This document shows, in pieces, positions 29,581 to 35,105 of a stretch of DNA of 64,000 bases. Numbering within the stretch: position 1 is the first letter of the stretch; each line of letters opens with the position of its first letter. This DNA is from Bacilli bacterium (GTDB lineage Bacteria > Bacillota_I > Bacilli_A > RF39 > UBA660): the NCBI GenBank assembly GCA_017513865.1, contig JAFWMN010000008.1:124001-188000 (forward strand), given 5' to 3'. Position numbers and translations under genes: made by a program. The notes beneath the pieces were generated by a model, which saw only the letters and a list, made by a program, of their open reading frames with translations, was not told where the DNA came from and did not search any database.

Positions 29581-30504
29581 TTATAGTTTAAGTATAAATA
29601 ATTCTAGTGCTAAATCTTTATTGGCATTTCCAGTTTTAATGTTTAGATCGATTTCCGCAAGGTCGTTGATGAATTTTAATAGTGTTTTAGAGTCATAAGC
29701 TTTACTATTTTGAATAGCTAGTTTAACACGATAAGGGTGTATTTGAAGAGTTTCGGCTATATTTTTTTCACTGTATCCTTTTTTCATCAGTTCTTTTGAT
29801 TGATACATGATTCTAAATTGATTTGCTAACATAATTACTATTTTTAGTGGTTCCTTATTTGTCTTTAACATTTCTTGATATATTTCTATTGCTTTATCTT
29901 TATTGTTTTTTACTATATTATCTATTAATTTAAAGATATCTGTTTCGATTGTTTTATATGTTGCTTTTAGTATGTCTTCGTCAGTTATTTCTTTGTCTTT
30001 GTTTTTATATAATTTTAATTTATTTATTTCATTTTCAATTATTAATGGATTACTACCTACTCTATCTATTAATAATTTTATATTTTGATGATTTATAGTA
30101 TATCCTTTTAATAAATTTTTAATGAATTCTTCAATGTTTATTTCACTATTAAATTCTAAAATTTTTCCGATTTTAGTAATCTGTTTTGTTATTTTTTTTC
30201 TTTTATCAATATTTTCATTATGTACGATAAATATTAGTGTAGCCATAGGATTTGGGTTGTTTATATATTCTTCAATTAAATCACTATCTTTATTTGTTCC
30301 AGCAGTAAACATGTTTGCATTATCAGCAATTATTATTTTATTTTCAGCAAATAGTGAGTATGTTTCACAATCGTCTATAATACTTTTTACTTGGTCAGTA
30401 TTTATATCATATTTACTTATATTCATCTTATCGGTGTTTTGGCAGATTTTTTCAATTTCTTTGTTTATCTCATAGTCTTTATTTCCATATAGTAAATATA
30501 TCAT
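29581..30504 (-). CDS. holA: DNA polymerase III subunit delta
   Basis: A 307-residue clamp-loader subunit. IYLLYGNKDYEINKEI, the NANMFTAG region, NPLIIENEINKL and the C-terminal MLANQFRIMYQSKEL are typical of HolA. In Bacillota holA usually follows comEC; here comEC is about 18 kb away. GGTGA precedes the ATG at 30504; the start four codons upstream overlaps that site. It probably shares a transcript with the HAD gene. Confidence 0.88.
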   Translation of the reverse strand: MIYLLYGNKDYEINKEIEKICQNTDKMNISKYDINTDQVKSIIDDCETYSLFAENKIIIADNANMFTAGTNKDSDLIEEYINNPNPMATLIFIVHNENIDKRKKITKQITKIGKILEFNSEINIEEFIKNLLKGYTINHQNIKLLIDRVGSNPLIIENEINKLKLYKNKDKEITDEDILKATYKTIETDIFKLIDNIVKNNKDKAIEIYQEMLKTNKEPLKIVIMLANQFRIMYQSKELMKKGYSEKNIAETLQIHPYRVKLAIQNSKAYDSKTLLKFINDLAEIDLNIKTGNANKDLALELFILKL

Positions 30505-30540
30505 GATTATCACCAACTATATTATATCAAAAATGGTTAA

Positions 30541-30573
30541 AGAAAAAAACTTATGCCGCTTTTTTCGGATAAG
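30541..30573 (-). terminator. Terminator inside the 3' end of the 126-residue protein gene
   Basis: On the - strand CTTATCCG pairs with CGG-C-ATAAG (one bulged C), followed by seven T. The last codons and the stop of the gene form the hairpin. Confidence 0.7.
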
Positions 30574-30931
30574 TTTTTATTTTAATAGGTTGTTTTTCAA
30601 TGGTTCTATTAGTATATAAGGTAAAATCACCATTTGCTTCAAATATGTTTCCAGTTGGTTTTGATAGGCTAATTGGAATCATTCTAATTAATTGTTTTTT
30701 TAAATTCTTTTTATTTATAGGATTTGTATATAAATTTGCAAGATATATTGTATCATATGTGTTATCTGTTATGAAATTTTCTAGTTCTTTTTTTTCTTCA
30801 TCGTTTAATGAATCAAAATTATTGATGAAATTGTATATTTTTTCACATGTTTCATAGTTGTATTCTGGATTTTCAACATATGTTTCAAAAGCTTTTTTGG
30901 CGCTTTTTATATAGTTTATTTTATTATTCAT
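30551..30931 (-). CDS. 126-residue cytoplasmic protein of unknown function
   Basis: No family recognised. Residues 1-60 are acidic and helical (KKAFETYVENPEYNYETCEKI), the middle is basic (NPINKKNLKKQLIRMIPISL), and the last 35 look beta-rich, ending in PKKAA. There is no signal or membrane segment. Its promoter is a perfect TTGACA-17-TATAAT and the ribosome site is AGGGGGGAG, so it should be strongly expressed unless the start-site hairpin represses it. It is monocistronic, between holA and an ABC exporter on the same strand. Confidence 0.7.
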   Translation of the reverse strand: MNNKINYIKSAKKAFETYVENPEYNYETCEKIYNFINNFDSLNDEEKKELENFITDNTYDTIYLANLYTNPINKKNLKKQLIRMIPISLSKPTGNIFEANGDFTLYTNRTIEKQPIKIKTYPKKAA

Positions 30932-30951
30932 GATACTCCCCCCTTCATGAA
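30927..30951 (-). promoter_or_regulatory. Inverted repeat enclosing the ribosome site and start codon
   Basis: TTCATGA and TCATGAA form a perfect 7-bp stem. The 11-base loop holds the AGGGGGGAG Shine-Dalgarno, and the 3' arm contains the start ATG of the 126-residue protein. This could be a translational control hairpin or a DNA operator. Confidence 0.45.
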
Positions 30952-30958
30952 CATAAAT

Positions 30959-30987
30959 ATTATAAACTTATTTTAATTTATTGTCAA
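30959..30987 (-). promoter_or_regulatory. Consensus sigma-A promoter of the 126-residue protein gene
   Basis: On the - strand TTGACA (30987-30982), a 17-base spacer and TATAAT (30964-30959). All twelve positions match the consensus. Confidence 0.85.
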
Positions 30988-31001: not shown

Positions 31002-31029
31002 AAAAAAGAATAGATTTTTTTCTATTCTT
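31002..31029 (-). terminator. Terminator after the ABC exporter pair
   Basis: On the - strand AAGAATAG (31029-31022) pairs with CTATTCTT (31013-31006), followed by TTTTT. The TAG stop is in the first arm. Confidence 0.75.
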
Positions 31030-33355
31030 CAAATTGAGCATTGTATAATTTTGTATAGAAACCATTTTTTTTCATTAGACTTTCATGAGTTCCTTGTTCT
31101 ATTATATTTCCATCATTCATTACGAGTATTAAATCAGCATTTCTAATGGTTGAAAGGCGATGGGCTATAATAAATGAGGTTTTTCCTTTTGCTAATTTGT
31201 CCATAGCTTTTGCTACTAATTCTTCAGTTCTGGTATCGACGTTTGATGTTGCTTCGTCTAATATTAAGAATGGTGAATTTTCGGTCATTCCTCTAGCTAT
31301 TGTTAATAATTGCCTTTGACCGGCAGAAATACTGTCATTATCTGATAATGGAGTTTCATAACCTTTGTTTAATGTTTTTATAAAGTGATCTAGTCCTACT
31401 TCTTCACAAATTTTTTCAATTTCTTTATCTGTTATATTTTTTTTGTTGAATTTAATGTTTTCTTTAATTGTTCCATCAAAGAGCCATGTGTCTTGCAGAA
31501 CCATTGTGAATAATTCGTGAATATTTTTTCTTGTTAAATCTTTTGTGCTTACACCATCAATTTTAATGTCACCTTTTTCTATGTCATAAAACTTCATTAA
31601 TAGATTAACCATTGTTGTTTTTCCCGCACCTGTTGGTCCTACTATAGCGATTTTTTCTCCTGGTTTTGCTTTGGCTGTGAAATTTTTAATTGTTGGTTTT
31701 TTATTATTATCATATCTAAATGCAACATTTTCGAAAGATATTTCACCTTTTACTTTTGTTTTTTCCAGATATTTTTTAGTTTCTTCTTTTACCATTTCTT
31801 TTTCTTCTAAAAATTCAAATACTCTTTCAGATGCGGCAGCGGCCGATTGAAGTGATGTCATGGCTTGGGCTATTTGTGATAGTGGTGATGTGAATAATCT
31901 GACGTAAGTTATGAAGGCTATTATAACACCGAAGGTTATTACATTATTCATTGTTAGTAAAGCACCTACTATACAAACAGCAACGTATCCAAAATTTCCT
32001 ATGAAAAACATAATTGGTTGCATTAGGCCTGATATAAATTGACTTTTTTTATTGCTTTCACATACTTTTGCATTATATTTATCGAATTTTTTGTTAGCTT
32101 CTTCTTTTCCGTTATATGCTTTTACTACATTTAACCCTGAATAAATTTCCTCAATATGTCCATTTAGATTTCCTAACTGTTCTTGTCTTTGTTTAAAATA
32201 CTTTTGGGAGTTTTTAAGTATTAAAGCCATCCCAATAAATCCAATTAGACTTGATATTATTGCGGTTAAAGCCATTGTCCAATTGGTCACAAACATCATG
32301 ATTATTGTTCCAATAAATAGTGTGATACTACTTATTAATGATGCGAGTGATTGATTCATTGTTTGAGCAATGGTGTCAACGTCGTTAGTAACTCTAGATA
32401 ATATGTCGCCACTTAGGTGTTTATCAAAATATTTAAGTGGAAGTAAATTTATTTTTTTCGATATTCTTCCTCTTAAATTATTGGCAAATCTGTTTGAGAC
32501 AGTGCTCATAATAATTGCTTGGACAAATGTGAATATAGCTCCACATAGATATAAACATAATAAGAATAGTGTAATATTTTTTATTTTATTTATATTCATT
32601 ACAGGACTTACCACTTTTTTGATTTTTTTTGGAGCTTTATCTAATTTTTTGTATATTTCATTTGCTTTTGTTTCTTTAGTGACTCCGGTCATTATTTTTA
32701 AAAAATCATATTGATCTTTGGATGTTATTCTAGTATTATTTATTTCAATTTCATCAAACATTATTTTTTGCATATTTTCTGATAATTTTATATTTTGTAT
32801 GTTTTTGTTTAATGACTTTAATAAAGCTATTTTTTCTTTAGACGTTATTTCGAAGTTATTATATGTACTTGTTGGTAAAATAATTTTTTGAATGCTTTCT
32901 GGAATTTTTCCTAGCATGTATAATGATTTTGTTTGATCTTGTTCATTTTTAATATTATAGATAATTTCTTTAAAAATTATTTTTTCCTCGTTTTTTATTT
33001 CTTTAGATGTCATTATTTTAGCAATTGTATTATCATCTAGTTGTATATTTAACATTTTTGGCAAGTTGTTTTTTAAATATTCTTCGTTGAAATTTTTGCT
33101 GGCATTTATTGTTATTTTTTGAATGTTTTTTTGATTTATTATAAGTCCTGCTGAAATTTCATCAGTTAGTTTTGATAATTTACTTGGTGCGGCAATTGAT
33201 AGGATTGATCCAAGAGCAGCTAAAGCACATGCGATTATGAGTAATATTTTATATTTTTTTATTTCAGTTGATAGTTTTTTTATGGCATTTTTGAAATCTT
33301 TTGGTTTTTCAACAATTTTCATTGGGCCATGTCCTTTATTCTCAGTCTTAGGCAT
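31022..33355 (-). CDS. Heterodimeric ABC exporter half with a large inserted domain (catalytically canonical NBD)
   Basis: A 777-residue ABC exporter half, against about 590 for its relatives. After membrane helix 1 (about 37-57) a polar insert of roughly 185 residues (about 73-258) precedes helix 2. The rest is a normal type IV exporter: Walker A GPTGAGKTTMVN, signature ISAGQRQLL, Walker B FLILDEATSNVD with the catalytic Glu, and H-loop IIAHRLST. By topology the insert lies outside the cell. ATG at 33355 follows AAAGGAGG and overlaps the partner's end by 8 bases. The substrate is unknown; drugs, peptides or lipids are possible. Confidence 0.88.
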   Translation of the reverse strand: MPKTENKGHGPMKIVEKPKDFKNAIKKLSTEIKKYKILLIIACALAALGSILSIAAPSKLSKLTDEISAGLIINQKNIQKITINASKNFNEEYLKNNLPKMLNIQLDDNTIAKIMTSKEIKNEEKIIFKEIIYNIKNEQDQTKSLYMLGKIPESIQKIILPTSTYNNFEITSKEKIALLKSLNKNIQNIKLSENMQKIMFDEIEINNTRITSKDQYDFLKIMTGVTKETKANEIYKKLDKAPKKIKKVVSPVMNINKIKNITLFLLCLYLCGAIFTFVQAIIMSTVSNRFANNLRGRISKKINLLPLKYFDKHLSGDILSRVTNDVDTIAQTMNQSLASLISSITLFIGTIIMMFVTNWTMALTAIISSLIGFIGMALILKNSQKYFKQRQEQLGNLNGHIEEIYSGLNVVKAYNGKEEANKKFDKYNAKVCESNKKSQFISGLMQPIMFFIGNFGYVAVCIVGALLTMNNVITFGVIIAFITYVRLFTSPLSQIAQAMTSLQSAAAASERVFEFLEEKEMVKEETKKYLEKTKVKGEISFENVAFRYDNNKKPTIKNFTAKAKPGEKIAIVGPTGAGKTTMVNLLMKFYDIEKGDIKIDGVSTKDLTRKNIHELFTMVLQDTWLFDGTIKENIKFNKKNITDKEIEKICEEVGLDHFIKTLNKGYETPLSDNDSISAGQRQLLTIARGMTENSPFLILDEATSNVDTRTEELVAKAMDKLAKGKTSFIIAHRLSTIRNADLILVMNDGNIIEQGTHESLMKKNGFYTKLYNAQFEE

Positions 33356-35105
33356 TTTCAAGTTCCTCCTTTGAAAGTTGTGACAAAGCTATCTGTTTAT
33401 ATACTTCGCATGTTTTTAATAATTCTTGATGCGTTCCTTTACCAACACATTTTCCTTTTTCTAGAACGATTATTTGATCGGCGTTCATTATTGTTCCAAT
33501 TCTTTGAGCTACAATTAAACTAGTTGTTTCTTTTGTATATTTTTTTAATTCTTTTCTTAATGTGGCATCGGTTTTATAATCTAGTGCGGAAAAAGAATCG
33601 TCAAATATATATATTTCTGGTTCTCTTGCTATAGCACGAGCGATGGCTAATCTTTGTTTTTGCCCACCGGAAATATTTGTTCCTGATTGAGCAATTACGC
33701 TGCTATATGACTTATCCATTTTAGTTACAAAGGAGGTTGCTTGAGCAATATCAATTGCTTTTTCGATGATGTTTCTTGTTATTTTTTTGCTACTTTTTCC
33801 ATATGAAATATTGTAATTAACAGTTCCATTAAATAATATTGCTTTTTGTGGTACATATCCTAATTTATTCATTAGAGTTTCTGTTTTATAATCTTTTACA
33901 TTTATATTATCGATTAAAACTTCTCCTTCAGTTGCATCATAGAAGCGAGGAACTAAATTTATTAAGGTGCTTTTGCCTGAACCGGTTGATCCTATAAATG
34001 CTATTGTCTCTCCTTTGTTGGCTTTAAATGATATGTTTTTTATAACGTATTCATCAGCATTTGGATATTTAAATGAAACGTTTTTGAATTCTACTATTCC
34101 TTTTTCTTTTGTTTCTTTATCAAATGTTCCTTCTTTTATTGTTAATTTAGCATCTAACACTTCATTTATACGGTTTGCAGATACTTCAGCTCTAGGCAAA
34201 ATCATAAAGATTACAGCAAGCATTAAAAATGACATTATTACTTGCATGGCATATGAACTAAATACAACCATGTTTCCAAAAATTGCTAATTTATCTGCTA
34301 AAAGAGCTCCTTTAATTATGTATGCTCCAGAAAAGTATATAGCTAATGTAACACCTTGTAAAACAAGATACATTACTGGTGATAGAATTGCAAATTTTTT
34401 TTGGTTATATAATTGTACTTCGGTTAATTCATCATTTACTTTTTTAAATTTATTTTCTTCATATTTTTCGGCATTAAAAGCTCTTACTACTCTTATTCCA
34501 TTTAAATTTTCTCTAGTTAGACCATTTAATTTATCAGTGAGTTTTTGAATAATTTTAAATCTTGGCACAACTATTTTTATTAATACCGCAATTATACTTA
34601 GAAGAATAACAATGGCTACTGCGGTGATACTACTCCACTCCCAGCTTTTGTTTAGGATTTTGGTAACTGCCCATACAGCGGTTATTGGAGCCTTAATTAA
34701 TAAGTGTAATCCTAGTCCAATTAACATTTCTACTTGTGTTACATCATTTGTTGTTCTGGTGATTAGACTACTTGTTTTGAATTTTTTTACTTCTTCCATG
34801 CCTAAATTCCCAACTTTTTCAAAAATTGCTTTTCTAATTTTCATTGAGAATTCTGAAGAAATATTGGCTGCTAGATACCCTGTGGCAACAGTAAAAGTTA
34901 AACTTCCTAAAGCACATAATAACATATATCCACCATTTATTAATATATCTTTCATTTTACTGCCTTCAGTTTGTACTAAAATGGTAATTTCTGACATATA
35001 ATCTGGCATTTTTAAATCTAGCCATACACCACCAACAACAAAAATAACGCATATTGTTATATTTAAAATGTCTTTTTTGTTCCAAAATCTCATTAGTTTT
35101 ATCAT
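33348..35105 (-). CDS. Heterodimeric ABC exporter half with a degenerate ATP site
   Basis: A 585-residue exporter half with six membrane helices and a nucleotide-binding domain. Walker A GSTGSGKSTLIN and signature NISGGQKQR are intact, but Walker B ends IFDDSFSALD (Asp in place of the catalytic Glu) and the H-loop reads VAQRIGT (Gln in place of His). This is the expected non-hydrolysing partner in TM287/288- and LmrCD-type exporters. GAGGAGG precedes the ATG, and a TATAAT on the - strand lies at 35135-35130 as a possible -10. It is the first gene of the two-gene operon. Confidence 0.9.
   Translation of the reverse strand: MIKLMRFWNKKDILNITICVIFVVGGVWLDLKMPDYMSEITILVQTEGSKMKDILINGGYMLLCALGSLTFTVATGYLAANISSEFSMKIRKAIFEKVGNLGMEEVKKFKTSSLITRTTNDVTQVEMLIGLGLHLLIKAPITAVWAVTKILNKSWEWSSITAVAIVILLSIIAVLIKIVVPRFKIIQKLTDKLNGLTRENLNGIRVVRAFNAEKYEENKFKKVNDELTEVQLYNQKKFAILSPVMYLVLQGVTLAIYFSGAYIIKGALLADKLAIFGNMVVFSSYAMQVIMSFLMLAVIFMILPRAEVSANRINEVLDAKLTIKEGTFDKETKEKGIVEFKNVSFKYPNADEYVIKNISFKANKGETIAFIGSTGSGKSTLINLVPRFYDATEGEVLIDNINVKDYKTETLMNKLGYVPQKAILFNGTVNYNISYGKSSKKITRNIIEKAIDIAQATSFVTKMDKSYSSVIAQSGTNISGGQKQRLAIARAIAREPEIYIFDDSFSALDYKTDATLRKELKKYTKETTSLIVAQRIGTIMNADQIIVLEKGKCVGKGTHQELLKTCEVYKQIALSQLSKEELENA

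Follow-up and report, generated by a model that had tools for sequence, protein, structure and literature searches.

Gene X (30551..30931, minus strand) encodes a protein of 126 residues behind a promoter that matches the consensus at every position, and its start codon is paired in a small leader hairpin. It raises the question of whether and how the dose of such a protein is controlled. The window, i.e. the whole stretch of 64,000 nucleotides analysed here, had been read once before from its letters. That earlier note listed a perfect promoter, an inverted repeat, the 126-residue ORF and a terminator, and each of these elements is indeed present in its described place on the minus strand. 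It had proposed from them an abundant mRNA with regulated translation, possibly autogenous, or a DNA operator downstream of a strong promoter. Here we follow the gene through its relatives and weigh these proposals against others.

A gene family of one genus of uncultured Bacilli

Gene X lies between holA, its downstream neighbour, which encodes the delta subunit of DNA polymerase III (29581..30516, minus strand; Pfam PF06144 and PF21694), and an ABC exporter gene located upstream (31022..33361, minus strand; PF00664 and PF00005). The host genome (G000) is a 1.31-Mb draft that is about 92% complete, in which the window occupies G000:C28:124001-188000. A single-sequence search found relatives of X in 24 of 59 genomes, its own genome counted, and a profile of those 24 sequences (A1) gave matches in 31 of the 44 genomes of the genus. 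Eight further, more diverged genes were recognised by reading the same locus (L055, L060, L064, L073, which is partial, L074, L075, L076 and L077). They are of similar size and their proteins have the same ending, which brings the total to 39 of the 44 genus genomes. Some of the most diverged members are weak against the A1 profile (E from 1e-5 to 1e-2), and their presumed kinship rests mainly on position, promoter, a central P-x(4-5)-K-P-like motif and the protein ending. X is absent from the finds in five genus genomes: G005, G006 and G007 have a contig end near the X locus, G008 has no X at the expected locus, and G013 gave no holA match and no X. Outside the genus, 394 other genomes of the class yielded two short marginal profile matches (E 4.5e-4 and 8.1e-4), which cover short stretches within frames of 884 and 259 residues and were not accepted as orthologues. 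We regard X as a real gene family, known to date from a single genus of uncultured Bacilli. It is single-copy wherever it was searched for, and no close paralogue was detected in 734 kb of its own genome.

The identity of A2 members to the window X protein ranges from 55% down to 19%. For comparison, HolA identity is 52–64% (a search with HolA gave a match in 15 of 16 genus genomes). In eleven pairs of X genes, dN (0.02–0.31) is well below dS (0.09–1.57) in every pair, which shows that the reading frame is under selection. The protein is fast-changing yet under purifying selection. The genetic context of the family varies. In many relatives X precedes uppP and/or genes for an OmpR-family response regulator and a histidine kinase; in the window's clade X no longer adjoins two-component genes. 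Directly upstream of X, many relatives encode Pfam-less proteins of about 300–440 residues that differ between clades (L022:528-1427, L010:500-1465 and L005 1909-3228, minus strand).

The last codons and the stop of X, followed by a T run, form an intrinsic terminator (30545..30578, minus strand; -10.3 kcal/mol). The earlier note had drawn attention to a terminator built from the gene's own last codons. The terminator is there, but as a special device it was rejected, because this arrangement is common in the same genome. Among 670 genes on five contigs (734 kb), a terminator overlaps the stop in 229 and follows it in 64, and the overlap occurs in 22 of the 54 genes of the window (both gene sets come from mechanical ORF calling). 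The terminator of the ABC exporter gene likewise overlaps its own stop. X most likely forms a transcription unit of its own, in one copy per genome.

The promoter and a repeated -35 hexamer

The promoter of X (30959..30987, minus strand) is of the sigma-70/A type and agrees with the consensus at 12 of 12 positions, with TTGACA at 30987–30982, TATAAT at 30964–30959 and a spacer of 17; a leader of 27 nt separates it from the ORF. No other of the 15 promoter-like sites detected over a scan of 2.5 kb scores 12/12. Both hexamers are perfect in 34 of the 38 complete members of the family, and the 17-bp spacer is found in 37. These counts, like those for terminator and tail, refer to the 37 members of A2 plus L076; L073, a partial sequence, is excluded. 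The pattern TTGACA-N17-TATAAT has 15 sites in the 1.31-Mb genome versus one for a reversed control pattern, and between 7 and 28 sites per genome over the 44 genus genomes. With this excess over the control and its retention among orthologues, the perfect promoter noticed earlier is confirmed and goes beyond chance. Other perfect promoters in the same genome serve, according to Rfam, the OLE RNA, an L10-leader operon and two T-box operons, and also genes that we take, by sight of their translations, to encode L34, IF3 and pilin-like proteins. The OLE RNA is of full length (Rfam RF01071, 386 bits) and lies beneath a 12/12 promoter in these small-genome Bacilli (L148, G000:C16:30600-32700, locus 2007-1399, minus strand).

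For an abundant mRNA with regulated translation, as proposed in the earlier note, the conserved strong promoter and the hairpin described below do speak. Its abundance, however, finds no backing in codon usage: the CAI of 0.669 places X at the 40th percentile of the 670 genes, the reference being all called genes at C23:130-152 kb, which are mostly ribosomal by sight and include other genes. The listings of the literature on promoters and start-codon hairpins hold nothing on gene X.

Comparison of the X promoters with one another brought out a feature that the earlier note did not contain. A hexamer T..ACA is located exactly 10 bp upstream of the -35 element in 25 of 37 X promoters versus none of 39 other perfect promoters examined (L006, whose -35 is not TTGACA, is outside the 37). 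The resulting direct repeat has the form T[TGA][GT]ACA-N4-TTGACA, for example in L010, L082 and L074. It is missing in 12 of the 37 promoters, and occurs in none of the five members of the window's clade and none of the four LAA-type members, three of which (L021-L023) do adjoin a response regulator gene. A "rest" group of 28 X promoters was defined after inspection of the data, and the overall figure of 25 out of 37 is the one to use. In 388 kb of four relatives, the repeat box is present at the four X genes and at three other places; no copy occurs in 734 kb of the window's genome. The repeat, which includes the -35 element, is likely an operator candidate nearly private to X, and a better one than the inverted repeat. 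An operator spanning the -35 would help to explain why this element is near-invariant. OmpR-family response regulators bind direct-repeat boxes, such as those of PhoP and WalR in Bacillus. The X promoters with the repeat resemble such boxes in their pair of similar hexamers, which are spaced by roughly one turn of the helix and of which the second overlaps the -35, and a gene for an OmpR-family regulator is found near X in relatives. They differ in that the spacing of the putative box is 10 rather than 11 and in that it is missing in the window's own clade.

The start-codon hairpin and its range

In one general class of translation-initiation hairpin, the loop carries the Shine-Dalgarno site and the stem pairs the start codon. 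The leader of X can fold in this manner (30925..30953, minus strand), with seven Watson-Crick pairs extended by outer G-U and U-A pairs. The arms are TTCATGA (30951–30945) and TCATGAA (30933–30927), both on the minus strand, and the 3' arm contains the ATG. The loop, AGGGGGGAGTA (30934..30944, minus strand), holds a G-rich Shine-Dalgarno-like site; a GGGGG run is located upstream of 16 of the 670 genes. Pairing, loop and paired start codon are all found as the earlier note described them. Its picture of a caged ribosome site is too strong, since the G-run itself is unpaired and the stem amounts to only about -7 to -8 kcal/mol. The X hairpin is like the general class in placing its G-rich site in a loop of 11–12 nt and its AUG in a stem of nine pairs. 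It differs in having no known ligand, protein or temperature switch, in its lack of covariation and in its range of only four species. Other leaders of the same genome (G000:C22, C23) share this layout of a looped ribosome site and a paired ATG, for example a 9-pair dyad before a 145-residue gene at C22:30014.

These four species, out of five close members, are that of the window and those of L002, L004 and L005. Their arms are identical, the loop measures 11 nt in the window and 12 nt in the others, and the stem is extended by a G-U or A-U pair and a U-A pair. In the fifth close member, L003, two stem pairs are broken without compensation. L006 has no stem, and no remaining X member has arms longer than 5. 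Covariation in the leaders of relatives, put forward earlier as a check, did not appear: none of the nine pairs changed on both sides, one changed on one side and two are the pairs broken in L003. The variation was too small for the shuffle control on these pair changes to be informative. In isolation, the 45-nt leader of the window folds at -7.8 kcal/mol (z -3.3) and none of 200 shuffles is equally stable; the 69-nt leader is unremarkable (z -1.16, with 28 of 200 shuffles equally stable). The short leaders of the four hairpin members range from -7.3 to -7.8 kcal/mol (z -1.9 to -3.3), and no such fold was obtained for L003 or for the three other X members folded. Rfam gave no match at gathering score on L001, the sequence that holds the leader. 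Dinucleotide shuffling of the leader yields arms of at least 7 in 74 of 5000 cases, and 2 of the 54 window genes have such arms. Judged in its own genome alone, the hairpin is marginal against chance.

This leaves room for a sober reading, which we consider a real possibility though a somewhat doubtful one. X could be a constitutive, strongly transcribed, lineage-specific housekeeping gene, its hairpin an inverted repeat that arose by chance and was passed on to a few close species, because the ATGAA start and the surroundings of the ribosome site are conserved for other reasons. The frequencies agree with this, at about 1.5% per leader by chance and with arms of at least 7 in 16 of the 670 genes (734 kb), as do the uncompensated stem, which is missing outside the close clade, and the company that X keeps, as perfect promoters of this genome also serve rplJ, L34, IF3, the OLE RNA and T-box operons (some of these names were given by sight). 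Against it, the 5' arm is under no coding constraint and yet is identical in four of the five species while neighbouring leader bases vary, and a constitutive gene would need no private upstream hexamer. The identity of this non-coding arm in four species whose proteins are about 50–55% identical to the window's argues for constraint on the hairpin. That it is no general control element of X follows from the absence of two-sided covariation, the break in L003 and its absence in all other members. We regard the hairpin as genuine but local to four species, where it is a candidate control element. Taken alone, as it was first described, it is of modest interest.

The protein, its ending and the proposed control of its dose

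The window X protein has a helical N-terminal part (predicted helices within residues 2–84) and a basic flexible tail that ends in KKAA. AlphaFold models of the window protein with A2 (pLDDT 75, pTM 0.44) and of the L010 protein with A5 (pLDDT 73, pTM 0.43) are both weak; in each, helices make up the first 84 or 85 residues and the tail that follows is largely without structure. All 38 members have a net basic tail. Searches of Pfam, NCBIfam, PHROGs and the sequences of solved structures confirmed the earlier statement that the protein belongs to no recognisable family. In Pfam, the best count was 2 of 37 X members, with weak matches; none was above the curated cut-off or consistent. These two, to Rgg_C (best E 0.00035), and other matches of single members were judged to be due to chance, as no family recurs. 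NCBIfam gave no match for the window X protein, the only one searched, and a phage origin was set aside with no consistent PHROGs match. The gene for ribosomal protein S20 is often found beside holA; the identification of X as S20 was rejected, as X has no match to the S20 family (PF01649) and the S20 gene of this genome is located elsewhere (G000:C30). Foldseek with the low-confidence X models gave no match at E <= 0.001, and FusB, at the top of the VIA-align list with Z 4.2 and 9.6 A rmsd, was not taken as evidence. No solved structure matched X in sequence at E below 0.3.

The protein ending is a feature beyond those in the earlier note. Of 38 X proteins, 35 have [AVM]A as their last two residues (AA in 27) versus 5 of 670 proteins of the window's genome, X included. 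This ending is kept where the terminator is elsewhere (L020, L022, L024) or where its stem was not found (L007, L015, L082), and it is lost in L004, L019 and L023 though the terminator remains. X could therefore bear a C-terminal degron, consisting of [AVM]A after a flexible basic tail, and be made fast and destroyed fast like quick-response regulators. ClpXP reads C-terminal poly-Ala tails in B. subtilis (PMC8138137), and the Ala-Ala of X after a flexible tail is like the SsrA and poly-Ala C-degrons of ClpXP substrates. ClpP is found in 43 of the 44 genus genomes. However, no ClpX was found in X's own genome, where the best score is 32 bits against a cut-off of 371 (in a draft about 92% complete), and Lon is above cut-off in none of the 44 genus genomes. 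The tmRNA tags of the genus end differently, in FA or LA rather than AA, and the ribosomal protein uL6 of the same genome (named by sight) also ends in KKAA. A ClpXP degron, at one time the leading idea, was lowered after the ClpX, ssrA-tag and uL6 results, and we now hold a degron to be unlikely. The genus has both ClpP and tmRNA, with ARAGORN tags ending in VPSFA, QLAFA or YYYLA.

The inverted repeat could also act as DNA, as an operator just downstream of the promoter; its dyad of 7-bp half-sites directly follows the -10 and is kept in four species. This proposal of the earlier note fits poorly. The half-site spacing varies, from 11 in the window to 12 in the remaining species, and the exact N11 site is unique, occurring once in its own genome and in no other of the 44. 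Both points make an operator of this kind less likely; spacers of 6–16 give one further site in 734 kb and an RNA hairpin is the simpler reading, so that we consider it very unlikely. Least probable of all is autogenous control by binding of protein X to its own leader hairpin: a basic tail in 38 of 38 members and a hairpin at the ribosome site would suit it, but the members without hairpin share the same tail and architecture.

We tentatively favour the reading that X is a small protein whose dose is controlled, at the promoter in most of the genus and, in the window's clade, by the start-codon hairpin. Conservation is shown for the X family, its promoter, its terminator and its tail; the control of dose is what we infer. 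For most of the genus we picture a dedicated regulator that would bind the two hexamers 10 bp apart, the second of which is the -35. Plausible candidates are X itself and the OmpR-family response regulator whose gene lies one or two places downstream. In the window's clade the upstream hexamer is gone, and the first codons would fold into a modest hairpin of nine pairs that pairs the ATG and exposes the G-rich ribosome site in its loop. This hairpin may damp or tune the translation of the strongly transcribed X mRNA. X is more likely a small regulatory or adaptor protein than a structural one. In a bolder version, which we find rather improbable, X is a self-regulating, fast-evolving regulator with a nearly private operator, and its control has been rewired within the genus. 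Most species would then sense at the promoter by way of the doubled -35 hexamer, and the window's clade would have dropped that site and shifted control to the start-codon hairpin, a natural switch from transcription to translation as the level of control, with the perfect promoter itself unchanged.

It is unusual for a promoter of perfect consensus to be kept in 34 of 38 species while the protein behind it has diverged to about 20% identity. Such a pairing points to tighter selection on the expression of the gene than on its sequence. That the hairpin-bearing clade is also the one to have lost the upstream hexamer makes X a natural case in which to ask how control moves between promoter and ribosome site.
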